A stretch of DNA of 13,272 bases from Syntrophaceae bacterium UBA5761 (lineage in GTDB: Bacteria; Desulfobacterota; Syntrophia; Syntrophales; UBA4778). The notes below the pieces were generated by a model, which was given only the letters and a program-made list of their open reading frames with translations, had not been told where the DNA came from and did not search any database. Made by a program: the position numbers and the translations under genes. The stretch covers positions 1 to 13,272 of the forward strand of contig DIEZ01000054.1 of NCBI GenBank assembly GCA_002418885.1. The letters run 5' to 3'. Below are positions 805 to 8,578 of this stretch, in pieces. Position 1 is the first letter of the stretch, and each line of letters opens with the position of its first letter.

Positions 805-2469
805 TCAGTCTTCCCTGAAGATAGCGCCGGTGCTGGCGGAGGTCACAAGCTGTGCATAACGTGCAAGGTAACCGCTCTTGACTGAGGACGGCCGGGGCTT
901 GAAGTCCTTTTTTCTCCGGGTTAATTCGCCATCACTGACTTTTAGGGTAAGTTTTTTCTTCGGAATGTCAATAGAAATTATGTCATCGTCCCTGACCAGG
1001 GCGATCGGGCCGCCCTCGGCCGCCTCCGGCGAGATATGCCCGATGGCCGCACCCTGGGTGCCGCCGCTGAACCTACCGTCGGTGAGAAGCGCCACCGATT
1101 TGCCGAGGCCCATCCCCACGATGGCGGAGGTCGGTCCCAACATCTCACGCATTCCCGGGCCTCCTTTCGGTCCCTCATAGCGGATCACCACGACGTCGCC
1201 GGGCTTTATCCTGCCGCCCAGGATAGCCGCGATGGCGCCGTCCTCAGAGTCGAACACCCGTGCCCGCCCCTCTTTCACCTGCATCTCGGGCGCTACGGCC
1301 GATTGTTTCACGACGGCGCCGTCGGGGGCAAGATTGCCCCTCATAACGGCGATGCCCCCTTCCTTCGAGTAGGGTGAATCGACCGTCCGGATCACCTCGC
1401 GGTTGAGAACCCGGGCTTTTTTCATATTTTCCCCGACAGTCGTCCCGGTTACGGTCGGCACCTTCCGATTGATGACGCCCAGCCGGCTGATTTCTTTCAT
1501 GACTGCCTGGATGCCGCCCGCCGCGTCGAGGTCTTCGATATGATGGTCGCCGGCGGGACTGAGCTTGCAGATGTTAGGTGTCTTCTCGCTGATGCGGTTG
1601 AAAAGGTCGAGGCTCAGATTGATGCCCGCCTCGTGGGCGATGGCGGGTATGTGGAGGACCGTGTTGGTAGAGCATCCCAGGGCCATATCGACGGCGATGG
1701 CGTTCTTGAACGCTTCCAGCGTGGCGATGTCCCGGGGCTTGACCTTTTTTTTCACGAGGTCCATGACCCTCACTCCCGCCTCCTTTGCCAGGCGGCGCCG
1801 CGCCGCATGGACCGCGAGAATCGTCCCGTTGCCCGGCAGGCCGAGGCCGAGCGCCTCGGTGACGCAATTCATGGAGTTCGCCGTGTACATCCCGGAGCAG
1901 GATCCGCAGCCCGGGCACGCGCGGTCTTCCAAGGCCTTGAGTTCCCCGACGGTCATGGTGCGGGCCTTGACTTGCCCTATGCCCTGGAAAACGCTGATCA
2001 AGTCGACCTTCTTCCCCCCCGTATCACCGGCCAGCATCGGGCCGCCGCTCACGAAGATCGACGGGATGTTGAGGCGCATTGCCGCCATCAGCATCCCCGG
2101 GACGATTTTGTCGCAGTTGGGGATGAACACAAGGCCGTCGAAGGGATGGGCCATCGCCATGACCTCGACGGAATCGGCAATCAACTCGCGACTCGCGAGG
2201 GAGAACTTCATCCCCTCGTGGCCCATGGCGATGCCGTCGCAGACGCCGATGGCCGGAAACTCGACCGGCGTGCCGCCCGCCATCCGTATCCCCGCCTTCA
2301 CATCCTCGGCAATCCGGTCGAGATGTATGTGTCCCGGGATGATTTCATTGGCCGAGTTCACAACCCCGATGATCGGCCTCGCAATCTCGCTGTCCGTGTA
2401 CCCCATGGCCTTGAAAAGCGACCGGTGAGGCGCTCTCTCCAGGCCCTTTTTCATCAAGTCGCTGCGCAT
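805..2469 (-). CDS. ilvD: Dihydroxy-acid dehydratase
   Basis: This enzyme dehydrates 2,3-dihydroxy-isovalerate and 2,3-dihydroxy-3-methylvalerate to the 2-oxoacid precursors of valine/leucine and isoleucine, using an Fe-S cluster in the cytoplasm. The 554 residues match the usual short bacterial/archaeal form (E. coli IlvD is about 616). Diagnostic motifs are [11 protein letters not shown] (77-87), NCDKIVPGM (118-126), [18 protein letters not shown] (185-202) and a C-terminal GRFSGGT. At residues 45-50 the sequence is PGHIHL, as in the E. coli enzyme, and not the PCNxHL of plant-type [2Fe-2S] enzymes. One cluster cysteine of that type is therefore absent, which suggests an oxygen-labile cluster of E. 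coli type (inference). The start is ATG at 2469 with an AAGGGGG site about 6 bases upstream. It follows ilvC by 31 bases and is the last gene of ilvBNCD. Confidence 0.97.
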
Positions 2470-2500
2470 ATCGTCCCCCTTCCCGCCGGTGGCCGGCCGA

Positions 2501-3568
2501 TTACCTTTTGCTAACCGCCTTCTTCCTTCTTTCAGGCCTTAGTGCCCGCACCGCGGCGCCCGCCCGCCACATCTCGCTGTTACGCAGTTCGGCCAGCTCC
2601 TCTTCCAGTCTTTCCCGGTAATCGGGGGTGCTGTTTGCCTTCAGCACTATCCGCGTCTCTGTTCCGGCGACGACGCGTTTATACAGTTTGTCGAAGACAG
2701 GGGCGACGGCGTCGCGGAAACGCCCCCTCCAGTCCAGGGCGCCTCGCTGGGCCGTCGTGCTGCAACTGGCGTACATCCAGTCCATGCCGTTCTCCGCAAC
2801 AAGACGGATCAGGCTTTGGGTCAGCTCTTCGACCGTCTCGTTAAAGGCCTCACTCGGACTATGGCCGTGGCTGCGCAAACAGTTGTACTGGGCCTCCATG
2901 ACACCCGCCAGGCAACCCATCAGGACACCCCTCTCGCCGACGAGGTCGCTGTAGACTTCCTTCTCAAAGGTCGTGGGGAACAGATAACCCGAACCGATGG
3001 CGATTCCCATGGCCAGGGTCCTCTCCAGCGCCCGCCCGGTGTAGTCCTGAAAGACGGCGAAGCTCGAGTTGATACCACTGCCGTCCAGAAAGTTGCTCCG
3101 CACGGTGCGCCCGGAGCCTTTCGGCGCCACGAGGATGACATCTATGTTCGGGAGCGGAACAACTTTTGTCAGCTTCCCGTACGTAATCGAAAAACCGTGA
3201 GAAAAATACAGCGCCTTTCCCTCCGTGAGATGAGGCTTGACCTTCGGCCACATGGCTTTCTGGCCCGCGTCGGAAAGAAGATAACAGACTATGGTTCCCC
3301 GTGCCGCTGCTTCTTCGACGGGGAAGAGTGTCTCGCCCGGTTTAAAGCCGTCCTTCACCGCCCTTTTCCAGCTCTCGGTCCCCTTCCGCTGCCCGACGAT
3401 GACGCGGATACCGTTGTCCCGAAGGTTCAGGACCTGTCCCGGCCCTTGGACGCCGTAACCGAGTACGGCTACAGTCTCACCCTTCAGGACCTTCTGCGCC
3501 TTCTTCAGGGGAAATTCCTTCGAGGTGATGACGTCTTCAACGACCCCACCGAAATCTATCTTTGCCAT
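2501..3568 (-). CDS. ilvC: Ketol-acid reductoisomerase
   Basis: This enzyme converts acetolactate or acetohydroxybutyrate to the dihydroxy acids by Mg-dependent alkyl migration and NAD(P)H reduction. The 355 residues are close to class I (short) enzymes. The Rossmann loop is GYGVQGPGQ (37-45) instead of the common GYGSQGHAH, followed by LNLRDNG. The coenzyme-specificity loop is GQRKGTESW (59-67). SHGFSI (123-128) carries the presumed catalytic His124, and [10 protein letters not shown] (148-157) carries Lys150. Asp208 and Glu212 in YSDLVGERG, with Glu244 and Glu248 in FNETVEE, align with the metal ligands. The C-terminus ends in a basic tail ([12 protein letters not shown]). The start is ATG at 3568 with AGGAGG upstream, 16 bases after the ilvN stop. 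The G-P-G-Q variant occurs in some anaerobes and Bacteroidetes as far as I recall. Function is secure. Confidence 0.96.
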
Positions 3569-3584: not shown

Positions 3585-4076
3585 TTATTTTATCCTCTCC
3601 AAGGCAACGATGCCTGTCCGGGCCAAGTCGTCGATCCCCAGCGGTTTGAGGCTCTCGATTGCCCTTTCGACGTCCGCTTTTGTACCCGTGATCTCGATGA
3701 CGCAGCTATCTCCGTTCATCGTGACGACCCGCCCTCGGAAGGTATCGATGATGAGCGCGATATCCGCCTTGTTCTTTTCCGTGAGCTTCATCCTGACGAG
3801 CATCATCTCGCGCATGACGGTCTCCGTCTCCGTCAGTTCGCTCACGGAGTGTACATCGATCAGACGGAGGAGCTGCTTTTCGATCTTCGTGATTGCCGAC
3901 TGGTCCTGGTAGACAGAGAGGATTATTTTGGAAATCTTCGGGTCCAGGGTGGCGTCCACACAGAGAGTATCGATGTTGTACCCCCTACCCCCCAGGGTAC
4001 CGGCGACTCTCGCTAAAACATCGGGTTTATTGTTCACAAGTAATGATAAGATATGTTCTTTTTTCTGCTTTTCCAT
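3585..4076 (-). CDS. ilvN: Acetolactate synthase small (regulatory) subunit
   Basis: This is the regulatory partner of IlvB: it stimulates the large subunit and in most bacteria binds valine for feedback inhibition. The 163 residues match E. coli IlvH in length and layout: an N-terminal ACT domain at about 8-80 (ILSLLVNNKPD, then RGYNIDTL) and a C-terminal domain from about 86 (REMMLVRMKL, IIDTFRGRVV, then ARTGIVALER at the end). Aligned to E. coli IlvH without gaps at the N-terminus, Asp19 (codon 4020-4022) sits at the Gly14 position. Gly14 to Asp is a known valine-resistance change in IlvH, so feedback may be weak here (inference). The start is ATG at 4076, 22 bases after the ilvB stop. The family uses the symbols ilvN and ilvH interchangeably. 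Confidence 0.95.
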   Translation of the reverse strand: MEKQKKEHILSLLVNNKPDVLARVAGTLGGRGYNIDTLCVDATLDPKISKIILSVYQDQSAITKIEKQLLRLIDVHSVSELTETETVMREMMLVRMKLTEKNKADIALIIDTFRGRVVTMNGDSCVIEITGTKADVERAIESLKPLGIDDLARTGIVALERIK

Positions 4077-4098: not shown

Positions 4099-5799
4099 TC
4101 AATTGATCATTTCCCGGCCCAGAGTCATCTCCTGGATCGACCCGCCCGGCCTCACCATGGGGTAGACGCATTCTTCACGGGCAACCCGGAAGTCCATGAT
4201 GACCGGCCCCGGGTGTTCGAGTCCCTTCCTGAGAGTGGCCGCCGCTTCATCGGGCTTCATGGCCCGCAAGCCGAGCGTCCCATAAGCCTCCGCAACCTTG
4301 ACGAAGTCCGGGGCGTAGGTCATGTCCGTCTGGGAATAACGCTTTTCGTAAAACAGTTCCTGCCATTGGCGGACCATCCCCAGGTAGCCGTTGTTGAGAA
4401 CGACGACCTTTACCGGGATCCTGTACTGAACGGCCGTCGCCAGTTCCTGGATGTTCATCTGGATGCTCCCGTCCCCGGCAATGTCCACAACCAGCTTATC
4501 CGGGAACGCAACCTGGGCGCCGATGGCGGCGGGCAGGCCGAACCCCATGGTCCCGAGGCCGCCGGACGAAATGAACATGTTTGGCTCGTCAAACTTGTAG
4601 AACTGGGCGGCCCACATCTGATTCTGTCCGACCTCGGTCGTGATGATGGCCTTACCCTTCGTAAGGTTGCAAAGCGTTTCGATGACAAACTGGGGCTTGA
4701 TGACTTCATCGCTCGGACAATAAGAGAGGGGAACGTTTCTCTTCCATTCCTCAATCATGTCGAACCATTCCCTGCGGTCTTCGTAGGAAACGGTGAAGTT
4801 TTGATCCGCCAGCAGCTTGTTGAAACTCCGCAGCGCCTCCTTGCAGTCCTGCACGATAGGAACATCGACCATGACGTTCTTGTTGATCGAAGAGGCGTCC
4901 ACATCCACGTGGACCTTCTTTGCCTTGCGGGCAAAGGTTTCGAGACTCCCCGTGACGCGGTCGTCGAAACGGCAGCCGATGGCGATCAAGAGGTCACAAT
5001 TAGTGAGGGCCATGTTGGCATAATAGGTTCCGTGCATGCCCGGCATCCCGAGCCATAGAGGGTCTGAAGCGGGGAACGCCCCGAGCCCCATCAGCGTCGA
5101 CGTGACCGGCATCTTGGTTCTCCTTGCCATCTGTCTCAGTTCTTCCGACGCCCGGCCGAGAACGATGCCGCCTCCGGTAAGTAGAACGGGCCTTCTCGAC
5201 TCGGCGATCAGGTCGTGCACATACAGGGCCTTCCCGGAAGCCGGCTTCGGCGGTGGAATCGGCTCCTCTTCCTTGGGCGGCAGGGGTTCATAATCCGTCG
5301 TCGCCTGCATGACGTCCTTGGGCAGGTCCACCAGGACCGGCCCAGGCCTTCCCGAACGGGCGATGTGGAAGGCCTCGTGTATCGTCCTGGCTAATTCATC
5401 TACACGCCTCACCTGAAAATTGTGTTTAGTGCACGGTCGGGTAATTCCCACGATATCGGCCTCCTGAAAAGCGTCCGTTCCGATGAGTGCCGTGGGAACC
5501 TGTCCGGTAAAGACAACGATGGGAATGGAGTCGAGATAGGCGTTGGCAATGCCCGTAACGGTATTCGTCGCGCCCGGCCCGGAAGTCACGAGGACGACAC
5601 CGACCTTTCCGGAAGCCCTGGCATATCCGTCCGCAGCATGTACGGCGCCCTGCTCGTGTCTGACGAGGATATGGGTGATGTCACTCCGGTATAGCTCGTC
5701 GTAGATGTCGAGAAGAACGCCTCCCGGATAGCCGAAGACCGTTTGAATGCCCTCCTGTTTCAGGGCTCTGATAAAAATTTCTGCGCCTTTCAGTTTCAA
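4099..5799 (-). CDS. ilvB: Acetolactate synthase large (catalytic) subunit
   Basis: This thiamine-diphosphate enzyme condenses two pyruvates, or pyruvate and 2-oxobutanoate, the first step shared by branched-chain amino-acid synthesis. It has 566 residues from the chosen start. Visible landmarks are FGYPGG (22-27), the catalytic Glu49 in RHEQGAVHAADGYAR, SGPGATN (73-79), the central FAD-binding-type domain (about 190-330), and the ThDP/Mg motif GDGS (442-445) running to LNN (468-470), followed by YLGMVRQWQ. I place the start at TTG 5797-5799: AAGGAGG at 5808-5814 lies 8 bases upstream of it. The GTG at 5806-5808, three codons upstream, shares its first base with that ribosome site and so can hardly use it. 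It is the first structural gene of ilvBNCD, behind an Ile/Val attenuator and an intron-like RNA segment. Confidence 0.96.
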   Translation of the reverse strand: MKLKGAEIFIRALKQEGIQTVFGYPGGVLLDIYDELYRSDITHILVRHEQGAVHAADGYARASGKVGVVLVTSGPGATNTVTGIANAYLDSIPIVVFTGQVPTALIGTDAFQEADIVGITRPCTKHNFQVRRVDELARTIHEAFHIARSGRPGPVLVDLPKDVMQATTDYEPLPPKEEEPIPPPKPASGKALYVHDLIAESRRPVLLTGGGIVLGRASEELRQMARRTKMPVTSTLMGLGAFPASDPLWLGMPGMHGTYYANMALTNCDLLIAIGCRFDDRVTGSLETFARKAKKVHVDVDASSINKNVMVDVPIVQDCKEALRSFNKLLADQNFTVSYEDRREWFDMIEEWKRNVPLSYCPSDEVIKPQFVIETLCNLTKGKAIITTEVGQNQMWAAQFYKFDEPNMFISSGGLGTMGFGLPAAIGAQVAFPDKLVVDIAGDGSIQMNIQELATAVQYRIPVKVVVLNNGYLGMVRQWQELFYEKRYSQTDMTYAPDFVKVAEAYGTLGLRAMKPDEAAATLRKGLEHPGPVIMDFRVAREECVYPMVRPGGSIQEMTLGREMIN

Positions 5800-5807
5800 T
5801 GAAAACA

Positions 5808-5814
5808 CCTCCTT
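5808..5814 (-). promoter_or_regulatory. Shine-Dalgarno site deciding the ilvB start
   Basis: AAGGAGG is a near-perfect anti-16S match. Its last G is also the first base of the GTG at 5808. Spacing to the in-frame TTG at 5799 is 8 bases, which is optimal. This favours TTG as the initiator; a weak start codon with a strong ribosome site is plausible for a regulated gene. Confidence 0.7.
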
Positions 5815-5840
5815 GTGGTATTGACGAAATCGCCCCCAAC

Positions 5841-5963
5841 GGTTTCCCGCTGCCCTTGGACCACGCCTCGCGGCGACAGCCCTCGCCGTTTAGCTAACGG
5901 TTCCAGTCACCAGGGTCCGTAGAGGACTCTCACTTCCAAGTAGGTGCGCCCTGCCGGGCGCGC
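5841..5963 (-). mobile_element. Group IIC intron relic: 5' part of domain I only
   Basis: Read on the minus strand from 5963, this 123-nt segment matches, from memory, the start of group IIC introns such as the Oceanobacillus iheyensis intron, block by block and in order. GCGCGCCCGGCA corresponds to GTGTGCCCGGCA; GTGAGAGTCC is identical; GTTAGCTAAACG corresponds to GTTAGCCTAACG; GCGAGGGCTGTC corresponds to GCAAGGGTGTC; a GC stem with GCGA-type loop follows; then AAGGGCAGCGGGAAACC corresponds to GAAGGAAGCGG...AAACC. Stems visible by eye are GGCGCGCCC/GGGCGCACC at 5943-5964 (one mismatch, GGCA loop) and CCGTT/AACGG at 5886-5900. It lies 3 bases after the T tract of a terminator, the preferred IIC target. 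The expected 5' GTG is GCG, and domains II-VI and the reverse transcriptase are absent, so it cannot splice. Alternative: an unrelated structured leader RNA. Confidence 0.62.
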
Positions 5964-5966
5964 CTC

Positions 5967-6000
5967 AAAAAAAAACCGTCACCAGGGCTGGTAACGGTTT
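5967..6000 (-). terminator. ilv attenuator terminator
   Basis: On the minus strand AAACCGTTACCA (plus 5989-6000) pairs with TGGTGACGGTTT (5973-5984). This gives a 12-bp stem with a single G-U pair and a GCCC loop. The 3' arm runs into nine consecutive Ts (5967-5975). This is a textbook intrinsic terminator inside the leader upstream of ilvB. The 5' arm can instead pair with 6025-6034 to form the antiterminator. It may also stop readthrough from the PBP1A gene, which has no terminator of its own. Confidence 0.9.
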
Positions 6001-6044
6001 TTAGTTTTTTGTCGGAGAAAGATCAAACCATCACGCAGCCCCTG

Positions 6045-6104
6045 TCATCGGGGATCTACAACTACAGCTACGACTACGATGGTGAGCGTGATGATTTTTC
6101 TCAT
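6045..6104 (-). CDS. Ile/Val-rich ilv leader peptide
   Basis: This short ORF reads MRKIITLTIVVVAVVVDPR and then TGA. Of 19 residues, 6 are Val, 3 Ile and 1 Leu, with Val codons clustered at positions 10-16. That bias toward the pathway's end products, directly before an intrinsic terminator and ilvB, identifies an attenuator leader peptide with no function of its own expected for the peptide. ATG is the only start in this frame. There is no good Shine-Dalgarno sequence before it, and with the promoter proposed here the 5' UTR would be only about 10 bases, so translation may be near-leaderless or the true promoter may lie further upstream. Confidence 0.85.
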   Translation of the reverse strand: MRKIITLTIVVVAVVVDPR

Positions 6105-6120
6105 ACGGATATTTAGTTGA

Positions 6121-6150
6121 CTTCTACAAAAAAGAACATCGACCTGTCAA
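6121..6150 (-). promoter_or_regulatory. Likely sigma-70 promoter of the ilv operon
   Basis: On the minus strand a perfect TTGACA (-35, plus 6145-6150) is followed after 18 bases by TAGAAG (-10, plus 6121-6126, 4 of 6 consensus). It lies just past the PBP1A stop and just upstream of the leader peptide. The -35 is convincing and the -10 is only fair. TAAATA at 6110-6115 is an alternative -10 but has no matching -35. Confidence 0.5.
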
Positions 6151-6172
6151 GTATTTTTTTCAGTCTATGTTT

Positions 6173-8578
6173 TCAGTCCAGGTCTTCCTTTTCACTTTCT
6201 TTCGCCGGGGCACCCCCAAAATGCTTCAAGAACCATTTTTCCAGGTCGCTGGGCGCATATTCCGTGGGTGCCGTCCCTTCAAGGAAACATTCCGTCCTGG
6301 CATCGGACGAAAAGGGGCTCGCGAGGAGTCCCGTCTTGGGGTCGATCTTCACAAAAACGATTCCCTCCGGGACGCGGAAGTTTTCCACGGGCTGCCCTGC
6401 CAGGGCCTTCTCCATGAAATACAGCCAGATCGGCGCAGCGGCTACGCCGCCCACTTCCGCCTTGCCGAGCGGCCTGCCGTCGTCGTACCCGACCCAAACC
6501 CCGGCGACGAGGGACGGGGTATAACCGACGAACCAGGCGTCCTTGTACTCATCCGTGGTCCCGGTCTTTCCGGCTACGGGTTTTCCTATAGCCCTCACCC
6601 GCCATCCCGTGCCGCGTTGCACCACATCCTGAAGCACGGACGTCGTGATGTAGGCCACCTTGGCGTCGATCACCGGCTCTACATTCGGCACGTGCTCTTC
6701 GAAGATGCTGCCTGTACGGTCGACGATTTTCCTGATGAAATAGGGTTCGGTTTTTTTCCCCTCGTTCGCCAGCACACCGAAGGCCCTTACCATTTCCTGA
6801 ACCGTGACGCCCGACGTCCCTAAGGCCAGGGAAAGATTCTCGGAAAGCGGTGATTCTATGCCCATGTTACGGGCGTAATCGACGGCGTAGCGCACGCCGA
6901 TGTCCTTGAGGACCTTTATGGTGACCACGTTGCGGGAATAGACCAGGGCGTCCCGCAACGTGGTGGGACCATGGTATTTGGCATCGAAATTCTTCGGCCG
7001 CCAATCACTGTCCCCGAGGGCATCCTTGAAAACGACCGGGGAATCCATCACGATGGTCGCCGGCGTGAGCCCCTTGTCGAAGGCGGCGGCGTATATCAGC
7101 GGCTTGAAAGCAGAGCCGGGCTGGCGCCGCGACTGGGTCGCCCGGTTGAACTCGCTCCGTTTAAAGTCCCGTCCCCCCACCATGGCCTTGATCTCGCCGG
7201 TCCTCGCGTCCATACAAAGAAAGGCGGCCTGAACGGCCGGATGAAGCTCGATCGAAAGTTTCAACGGTTCTTTTTGAGGTTTTTCTACGAGGCGCGCTTC
7301 GACCACATCCCCGGGGCTGAAGAGACCGGCGGGGTTGTACATCTTACCCATTTCGACGTCCTTAGCGGCGTTCGCTGCCAGGTGAATATGGTCGAAGGAT
7401 GCCACCGCCTTCCGGCGCCCCACCAGTAGATAGACGACCCTGTCACCCTCGTCTACCGACTCGACAACCGCCTCGACGACCTGCTCTTTTTCCAGCGGTT
7501 TCTTTGAAATCTCCTTTTCCACCCGGGAGGTGAACTGGCCAACCTTTGCCGCGGGGACCCTCCTGATGGACACCCTTGTCCCTTCTCTCTTTTCGAGCTC
7601 TTGCAACCCTCTCTCTACGGCTGCCGTGGCGGCCTGCTGCATCTCAAAGTTCAACGTCGTGTAGACCTCGAGACCCTCCTTATACAGGGCCTCACTCCCG
7701 TACTTAGCGACGATGTAACGGCGCACGTTCTCCGTGAAATAAGGTGCCACTTTACCCTTGGGACCGGCTGTGTTCAGCCGGATCGGCATCTTTTCCGCCC
7801 GTTCTTTTTCCGCCTCGGTTATGTAGCCGTCTTCCACCATCCGGTTCAGGGTGTATGCTTGACGCTGTTTGGCTTTCTCAAGACTCACGAAAGGGGAGTA
7901 CCGGCTCGGCGCCTTCGGTAGTCCTGCGAGAAGGGCGGCCTCGGCCAGGTTCAGGTCCCTCGCACTCTTGCCGAAATAGCACTGAGACGCAGCCTCGATC
8001 CCGTATGTCCCGTGCCCGAGGTATATCTGGTTAAGGTAAAGATTCAGGATCTCGTATTTCCTCAGATAACGGTCCATCCGGTAGGCCAGGACGGCCTCTT
8101 TGATCTTCCTCGTCAGGCTCCTCTCGGGTGAGAGATAGATGGCCTTCGCGAGCTGCTGGGTGATGGTGCTGCCGCCCTGGACGATGGCGCCATGGGTCAC
8201 GTTCTTGACGAAGGCGCGCACCATCCCGTAGAAATCGATCCCCTCGTGCCGGAAGAACCTCGAATCCTCAGCGGCGATGAAGGCTTGGGCGACGTATTTG
8301 GGCACTTTGTTTATCGGGATAAACCGCCTGTCCTCGAGGAAGAACTCGTCGATCAATCGGTCGTTGTCGGAATATACCCTGGTCGTGATGCTCGGCCGAT
8401 AGTCCTTCAGGTTGTGGATGTCGGGCAGGTCACGGATGATTACGTACAGATAGAGACCGGCGGCAACGACAAGAAAGGGGAAAAGGACGAGGATAGAAAG
8501 AAAAAACCTCCTGAACCAAGGACTTCTTCTCGCGCCGTCTCTGATATTTTTCATCGACAGTTTTCTGTGCCGCCTCAT
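6173..8578 (-). CDS. mrcA: Class A penicillin-binding protein, PBP1A type (transglycosylase/transpeptidase)
   Basis: This is a bifunctional peptidoglycan synthase that polymerises lipid II glycan chains and cross-links the peptides on the periplasmic side. It has 801 residues from the chosen start. One membrane anchor lies at about 24-48 after a basic N-terminus. The GT51 domain has EDSRFFRHEGID (104-115, catalytic Glu104), QGGSTITQQLAK (134-145), RKIKEA (158-163, second Glu161) and NQIYLGHGTYGIEAAS (183-198). An OB-like insert region at about 335-445 precedes the transpeptidase, with SAFK (Ser489/Lys492), SRN (548-550) and KTGTT (671-675). The C-terminal tail is charged. I use ATG 8578, whose A is the last base of the tatC stop (TGATG), with GAAGGG upstream. 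The frame stays open a further 53 codons into tatC, but that stretch is low-complexity shadow. It is the third gene of the tatA-tatC unit. Confidence 0.94.
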   Translation of the reverse strand: MRRHRKLSMKNIRDGARRSPWFRRFFLSILVLFPFLVVAAGLYLYVIIRDLPDIHNLKDYRPSITTRVYSDNDRLIDEFFLEDRRFIPINKVPKYVAQAFIAAEDSRFFRHEGIDFYGMVRAFVKNVTHGAIVQGGSTITQQLAKAIYLSPERSLTRKIKEAVLAYRMDRYLRKYEILNLYLNQIYLGHGTYGIEAASQCYFGKSARDLNLAEAALLAGLPKAPSRYSPFVSLEKAKQRQAYTLNRMVEDGYITEAEKERAEKMPIRLNTAGPKGKVAPYFTENVRRYIVAKYGSEALYKEGLEVYTTLNFEMQQAATAAVERGLQELEKREGTRVSIRRVPAAKVGQFTSRVEKEISKKPLEKEQVVEAVVESVDEGDRVVYLLVGRRKAVASFDHIHLAANAAKDVEMGKMYNPAGLFSPGDVVEARLVEKPQKEPLKLSIELHPAVQAAFLCMDARTGEIKAMVGGRDFKRSEFNRATQSRRQPGSAFKPLIYAAAFDKGLTPATIVMDSPVVFKDALGDSDWRPKNFDAKYHGPTTLRDALVYSRNVVTIKVLKDIGVRYAVDYARNMGIESPLSENLSLALGTSGVTVQEMVRAFGVLANEGKKTEPYFIRKIVDRTGSIFEEHVPNVEPVIDAKVAYITTSVLQDVVQRGTGWRVRAIGKPVAGKTGTTDEYKDAWFVGYTPSLVAGVWVGYDDGRPLGKAEVGGVAAAPIWLYFMEKALAGQPVENFRVPEGIVFVKIDPKTGLLASPFSSDARTECFLEGTAPTEYAPSDLEKWFLKHFGGAPAKESEKEDLD

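Follow-up and report, generated by a model that had tools for sequence, protein, structure and literature searches.

Excerpts from three papers describe group IIC introns (bacterial class C) as elements that insert at transcription terminators (PMC4424553, PMC8919778, PMC4028801), and one of these excerpts adds that, being behind terminators, they have few chances of transcription and a limited effect on host genes (PMC8919778). According to passages in two of the papers, the majority of bacterial group II copies are truncated or inactivated (PMC4424553, PMC4028801). Among the titles and abstract openings of the open-access literature, no report of IIC introns in attenuators was recognised. 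Here we describe the 5' remnant of a IIC intron that lies between the terminator of an amino-acid attenuator and the first gene of an ilvBNCD operon. The element class and its target rule are already known, and the noteworthy part is the landing site in a regulated leader.

The window analysed here, a stretch of 13,272 nucleotides, is the whole of contig C61 in a Syntrophaceae draft assembly (G000; 2.03 Mb, 89 contigs, 89% complete). On its minus strand runs ilvB-ilvN-ilvC-ilvD, with the leader upstream. The features of leader and operon, in the direction of transcription, are as follows.

6145 to 6150, minus strand: TTGACA, a putative -35-like promoter element upstream of the leader peptide, a candidate by eye.
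6045 to 6104, minus strand: predicted leader peptide MRKIITLTIVVVAVVVDPR, with I, L or V in 10 of 19 residues, from the reading of the ORF.
6086 to 6095, minus strand: arm 1, AUCAUCACGC, within the leader ORF, able to form 10 of 10 pairs with arm 2 at 6036-6027, G-U allowed.
6025 to 6036, minus strand: arm 2, the antiterminator strand, GCGUGAUGGUUU, of which 6034-6025 can form 10 of 10 pairs with the terminator 5' arm at 6000-5991, G-U allowed.
5976 to 6000, minus strand: attenuator terminator hairpin, from fold and conservation.
5967 to 5975, minus strand: terminator T tract of 9 T, read from the sequence.
5842 to 5963, minus strand: group IIC intron fragment, the 5' end of domain I (model positions 1-121), from profile, covariance model and DNA identity.
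5815 to 5841, minus strand: junction sequence, old leader or deletion residue, in which only CGAT resembles IIC 3' ends (not significant).
5806 to 5814, minus strand: ilvB ribosome binding site AAGGAGGTG; comparable sites precede ilvB in relatives.
4099 to 5799, minus strand: ilvB, acetolactate synthase large subunit (TIGR00118, E 1.7e-248), with a TTG start by analogy with relatives.
3585 to 4076, minus strand: ilvN/ilvH, acetolactate synthase small subunit (TIGR00119).
2501 to 3568, minus strand: ilvC, ketol-acid reductoisomerase (TIGR00465).
805 to 2469, minus strand: ilvD, dihydroxy-acid dehydratase (TIGR00110).

By its anatomy the leader is an amino-acid attenuator, with regulation predicted from an I/L/V-rich leader ORF and a conserved antiterminator and terminator. 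Pairings 1:2 (6095-6086 with 6036-6027) and 2:3 (6034-6025 with 6000-5991) are mutually exclusive. Across ten aligned leaders of the order, this one included, the antiterminator word GATGGT and the terminator AAACCG..CGG are invariant; the terminator pattern had missed three of 13 leaders (L018, L037 and L041), whose terminators are visible by eye and which do not form part of the alignment. A leader ORF was found in the nine other leaders too, in a search for the frame richest in I, L and V, which biases the comparison towards finding one. No Rfam family reached the gathering threshold in the leader. Contrary to the reading by eye and to the fold, a consensus scan of 5750-6250 returned neither promoter nor terminator, the terminator perhaps escaping it through pairing of its T tract with A's further upstream.

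The initial annotation, made from the sequence alone, had recognised opening motifs of group IIC introns in order on the minus strand at 5963-5841. These motifs are present, and two kinds of model identify the segment as a 5' fragment of IIC domain I. A profile was built from 62 IIC 5' ends, which come from named records among at least 80 loci matched with the reverse transcriptase (RT) of the intron in genome G002 and do not include the window or the G002 copies; it gave one nhmmer match in the window, at 5961-5845 on the minus strand (60.9 bits, E 1.1e-18). A covariance model built from 34 introns (one from G002, with the window left out) gave a match at 5963-5842, covering positions 1-121 of 151 (79.2 bits, E 4.9e-18). 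The alignment of these 34 introns has a consensus fold of 31 pairs, both sides of which vary in 23, and the fragment keeps 25 of the 31; both the domain I 5' sequence and the secondary structure of IIC introns are therefore found here. At the DNA level the fragment is 81-82% identical to two copies in G002, a genome of the same family: L009, a near-complete intron with RT and Rfam group II domains that is ended only by the contig end, and L010, a second 5' fragment and itself a stub. Weaker DNA matches, in a search of its own genome and 59 relatives, occur in G053 (two places), G044 and G039 (36 bases); both G053 places match the covariance model, and the G044 place does so over 20 positions only (E 0.0055). 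By eye the intron-like stretch may reach about 5834, for a total remnant of about 122-130 nt, and the sequence past about 5842 (at most 5834 by eye) cannot be aligned to introns.

At its gathering threshold Rfam found nothing in the window, and a scan of 5600-6250, which takes in the 5800-6010 segment that the initial annotation had singled out for such a scan, returned no group II match up to E 10. Rfam probably misses the fragment because its group II models leave out the beginning of domain I: in other introns, the match to group-II-D1D4-3 sets in only after about 86 bases. A 5' stub overlooked by Rfam can be recovered with a model of 5' domain I.

The stub is unable to splice. It starts with GCGCG at 5963-5959, breaking the GUGYG of the class as the initial annotation had noted (GTG changed to GCG), while G1 and T2 are invariant and all 34 aligned introns start with GT. 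The 3' part is likewise missing, with nothing recognisable past about position 130 at the locus. For domain V there was no Rfam group II match in the window and no RF00029 match in the genome assembly, and a PF00078 search of the whole assembly found no class C RT in the window. A possible remnant of the intron 3' end at 5840-5815 was rejected, since only CGAT agrees with IIC 3' ends by eye. No further copies of the fragment were found in the assembly, whose sole PF00078 (RT_1) match lies on contig C38 (L008, about 1130-2697, plus strand), a stand-alone RT_1 protein in an open frame of 525 aa. By sequence and surroundings this protein looks unlike a group II intron RT and is possibly a defence RT. 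A second fossil in the same genome, on contig C66 (L252, 3018-3095, minus strand), is a 26-residue scrap of a IIC RT C-terminus. The lack of domain V, the RT_1 protein unlike that of an intron and the RT scrap fit an extinct element family, and within the limits of the draft assembly the intron family seems to be extinct in this genome; as the draft is 89% complete, an intact copy could be missing from it.

As the initial annotation had stated, the fragment begins three bases past the T tract, from which GAG (5966-5964) separates the intron start at 5963. The distance from terminator stem to intron start is 12 nt, close to the usual IIC distance, and of the two placements expected of a IIC intron, directly behind a terminator hairpin or an attC, the fragment shows the first. 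Of the named introns, 44 retain their whole 5' end together with 60 nt of upstream sequence; 36 of these have a T run just upstream, and the stem-to-intron distance is 8-11 nt in 27 of the 36. A set from the class survey (33 of 99 surveyed places, picked by their first letters as terminator-type elements) has a T run in 29 of 33 and a distance of 8-14 nt in 25 of those 29. With a spacing this near the usual IIC range, the attenuator terminator was very likely the insertion target, in agreement with the proposal of the initial annotation.

The comparison of ilvB leaders, which had also been suggested at the outset, covered the best 30 of 53 IlvB matches, from 51 of 60 genomes, the present genome included. 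At these 30 loci the covariance model finds the fragment at its own ilvB locus only; one other locus (L022) is cut by a contig end, and the fragment is absent from the 28 readable leaders of relatives, which are attenuator-like by eye. This absence argues against an ancestral leader RNA and for an insertion specific to this lineage, as far as sampled. The ilv leader of G002 is a compact empty site. Two other relatives, G001 and G009, carry different inserts between terminator and ribosome binding site, palindromic by eye (L014 3215-3341 and L016 3215-3399, respectively, both minus strand); the G001 insert is single-copy in its genome, and a 36-base part of the G009 insert is found once more, at 89%. 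These inserts were considered as IIC elements and rejected, as the covariance model gives no match, and they are no clear multi-copy repeats either.

From the identity and position of the fragment, its absence in the examined relatives, the absence of intron 3' parts at the locus and substitutions consistent with neutrality, we infer entry by retrohoming, exit by deletion and no effect on ilv expression. A terminator-targeting group IIC intron would have retrohomed directly behind the ilvBNCD attenuator terminator in an ancestor of this genome, either after the split from the two examined family members or with later loss from those. A subsequent deletion would have run from about position 122-130 through the RT and domains V-VI, perhaps with some 3' exon, so that 122-130 nt remained as a stub that separates the attenuator from the ilvB ribosome binding site. 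This stub would drift neutrally and be transcribed only on attenuator read-through, as inert 5' UTR. We put the probability of this whole account, from IIC insertion behind the ilv attenuator through deletion to neutral drift, at roughly 0.88; the stub is most likely an ordinary fossil without function in an unusual place.

The pattern of change in the fragment fits that predicted by neutral decay. Because the insertion is found in one genome only, the yardstick for neutrality was the consensus of six related 5' ends (L009, L010, L043, L158, L161 and L162, with L010 a stub as well) in place of stub orthologues. Relative to the majority of these six, 21 of 121 positions in the fragment are substituted, by transitions in 17 cases. 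Nine of the 21 fall in paired columns, about as expected given that paired columns make up 62 of the 121, and 4 of 26 invariant columns are changed, the second base included. Six of 31 pairs are broken in the fragment compared with one in the consensus, and a neutral simulation (20,000 random placements of an equal number of changes) gives 6.1 +/- 1.9. The initial annotation had seen stems retained with compensating GC pairs and had raised reuse as a leader RNA affecting ilvB expression; with pair breakage at the neutral expectation, the first is not borne out and the second gains no support.

A more specific version of reuse, in which an exapted leader element tunes ilvB read-through transcripts by its fold or by mimicry of the terminator arms, is improbable. 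The routes proposed for it are transcript stability, ribosome access and pairing with the antiterminator strand. The stub does hold copies of two terminator-arm words: the 10-mer CCCTGGTGAC is common to the terminator 3' arm (5987-5978) and the stub (5915-5906), both on the minus strand, and AACCGTTA is common to the stub (5902-5895, minus strand) and the terminator 5' arm. It also folds slightly more stably than its shuffles (z -2.1, equalled by 9 of 200; z -1.7 when the ribosome binding site is included), an excess that may be a leftover of intron stems. However, AACCGTTA is already present in related introns such as L009 and L043, so that match predates the insertion. Moreover, the stub is transcribed after the terminator decision and therefore cannot act on it in cis, and its pairs are broken at the rate expected of neutral change. 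The 10-base CCCTGGTGAC identity was created by one substitution in the stub, and the neutral fossil reading leaves it without explanation.

Very improbable is an assembly artefact, by which the ilvB side would have been misjoined to a contig that stops in an intron 5' end. Contig ends do cut IIC matches short at 118-141 bases, in G096 as well as in several further genomes, and breaks about 120-140 bases into such repeats are frequent in assemblies of this class. The stub, however, lies within a contig, has invariant positions broken and departs at 21 of 121 positions from the consensus of the elements closest to it; no other copy was found in the assembly, and a wrong join would leave intron 3' sequence on the right side, where none is recognisable. 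An unrelated structured leader RNA with a chance likeness to domain I, for which only the absence of an Rfam match speaks, can be dismissed in view of two models near E 1e-18, 81-82% identity to elements with intron domains and RT, and the absence of such an RNA from the other 29 ilvB loci that were searched, of which one is cut off.

The fossil reading places the stub in a common category. Matches to the 5' model occur in 54 of 155 genomes of the class, the present one included, for 127 matches in total. Of the 126 outside this genome, 99 were surveyed and 27, mostly near contig ends, were left out; 26 of the 99 run into a contig end, 39 keep an RT or domain V pattern and 34 keep neither. This leaves 34 of 73 decidable places lacking both, by a crude sorting that relied on three RT queries and a loose domain V pattern and that filed L182, a stub by eye, among the 39 as near-complete; since the probe was the 5' end, the count is one of 5' stubs and leaves out 3'-only ones. 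5'-only IIC stubs are clearly ordinary in this class. A recurrent breakpoint at about 120-130 nt was considered and rejected: many of the 118-141 nt matches are contig ends, and real stubs break variably by eye. A tandem at L115 contains N's, looks like an assembly problem and was not used. Separately, three short IIC elements, L156, L157 and L159, may be ORF-less introns: at about 510-640 nt in length, they lack an RT match and show a domain V pattern soon after domain I, with a stretch of N in L159. Stubs of about 60-70 nt by eye in two species of one genus (L174, G106:C22; L175, G094:C49) look like orthologues at the same place, in which decay could be followed.

One further conditional terminator with a IIC element behind it emerged from an Rfam screen of 70 IIC loci, at some of which the available DNA begins only shortly before the intron. 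Among these loci a single riboswitch, a TPP aptamer (L158:1066-1157), lies immediately ahead of an intron: within 1066-1207 (plus strand) of L158, a locus on G109:C74, a IIC 5' end follows at 1201, directly behind the TPP-riboswitch terminator. The aptamer strand TACCCTTCGA (1101-1110) is complementary to TCGAAGGGTA (1175-1184) in the terminator, and perfect complementarity between aptamer and terminator extends over at most 11 bases, a length reached by 1 of 2000 shuffles of the aptamer letters. A search with one T-box pattern found none upstream of 178 intron starts, some of which have little upstream DNA. In a leader-peptide screen of intron 5' flanks, covering the class places and the named loci, the window ranked second; the top candidate, L114, was rejected as an asparagine-rich frame with a GTG start that looks like an ordinary coding tail. 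Upstream of the G002 intron L009 are a promoter-like site, a small ORF rich in Leu and a terminator; because the contig ends inside the intron, L009 was left out of the count of conditional terminators. Elsewhere, a IIC intron lies right behind a 6S RNA gene in Cytobacillus gottheilii (L118 3210-3453, plus strand). The element behind the TPP-riboswitch terminator indicates that conditional terminators have been used more than once, though rarely, and IIC introns seem to use any available terminator, with regulated ones included but rare in this sample.

Termination at attenuators and riboswitch platforms can be lifted on demand, and the stub and the TPP element show that such sites are used: switchable terminators, and not just ordinary ones, can receive IIC introns. 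It is a bolder and rather unlikely proposal that regulated terminators are ordinary IIC targets at which intron activity is gated by read-through under starvation and decay leaves stubs in leaders. If it held, an intron behind a regulated terminator would escape the usual silence, being transcribed and mobile only on attenuator read-through; its activity would be tied to amino-acid or vitamin starvation, and the stub of the window and the TPP-riboswitch element of G109 would be two traces of this. It raises a testable question, namely whether an intact intron at such a site is expressed and mobile only on leader read-through.

The locus can be compared with several systems. With group IIC introns the fragment shares the 5' sequence and fold of domain I, its orientation and its place directly behind a terminator T tract, whereas only about 122-130 nt are left, GUGYG has become GCGCG, RT and domain V are absent, and the terminator is an attenuator within an operon leader instead of one at a gene end. 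Truncation itself it shares with other bacterial group II copies, as the 34 of 73 places in this class lacking an RT or domain V pattern illustrate, but its site, the 5' UTR of a biosynthetic operon, sets it apart. The leader has the I/L/V-rich leader peptide, the exclusive pairings 1:2 and 2:3 and the terminator of ilv peptide-leader attenuators, and differs from them in the intron stub between terminator and first gene. Another counterpart is the G109:C74 element, in which a IIC 5' end again follows immediately on a regulatory leader's terminator and the intron is again broken, its RT match ending at about 1 kb; there, in contrast, the leader senses a metabolite, about 1 kb of intron is kept, and a long frame, recombinase-like by eye, follows on the other strand.
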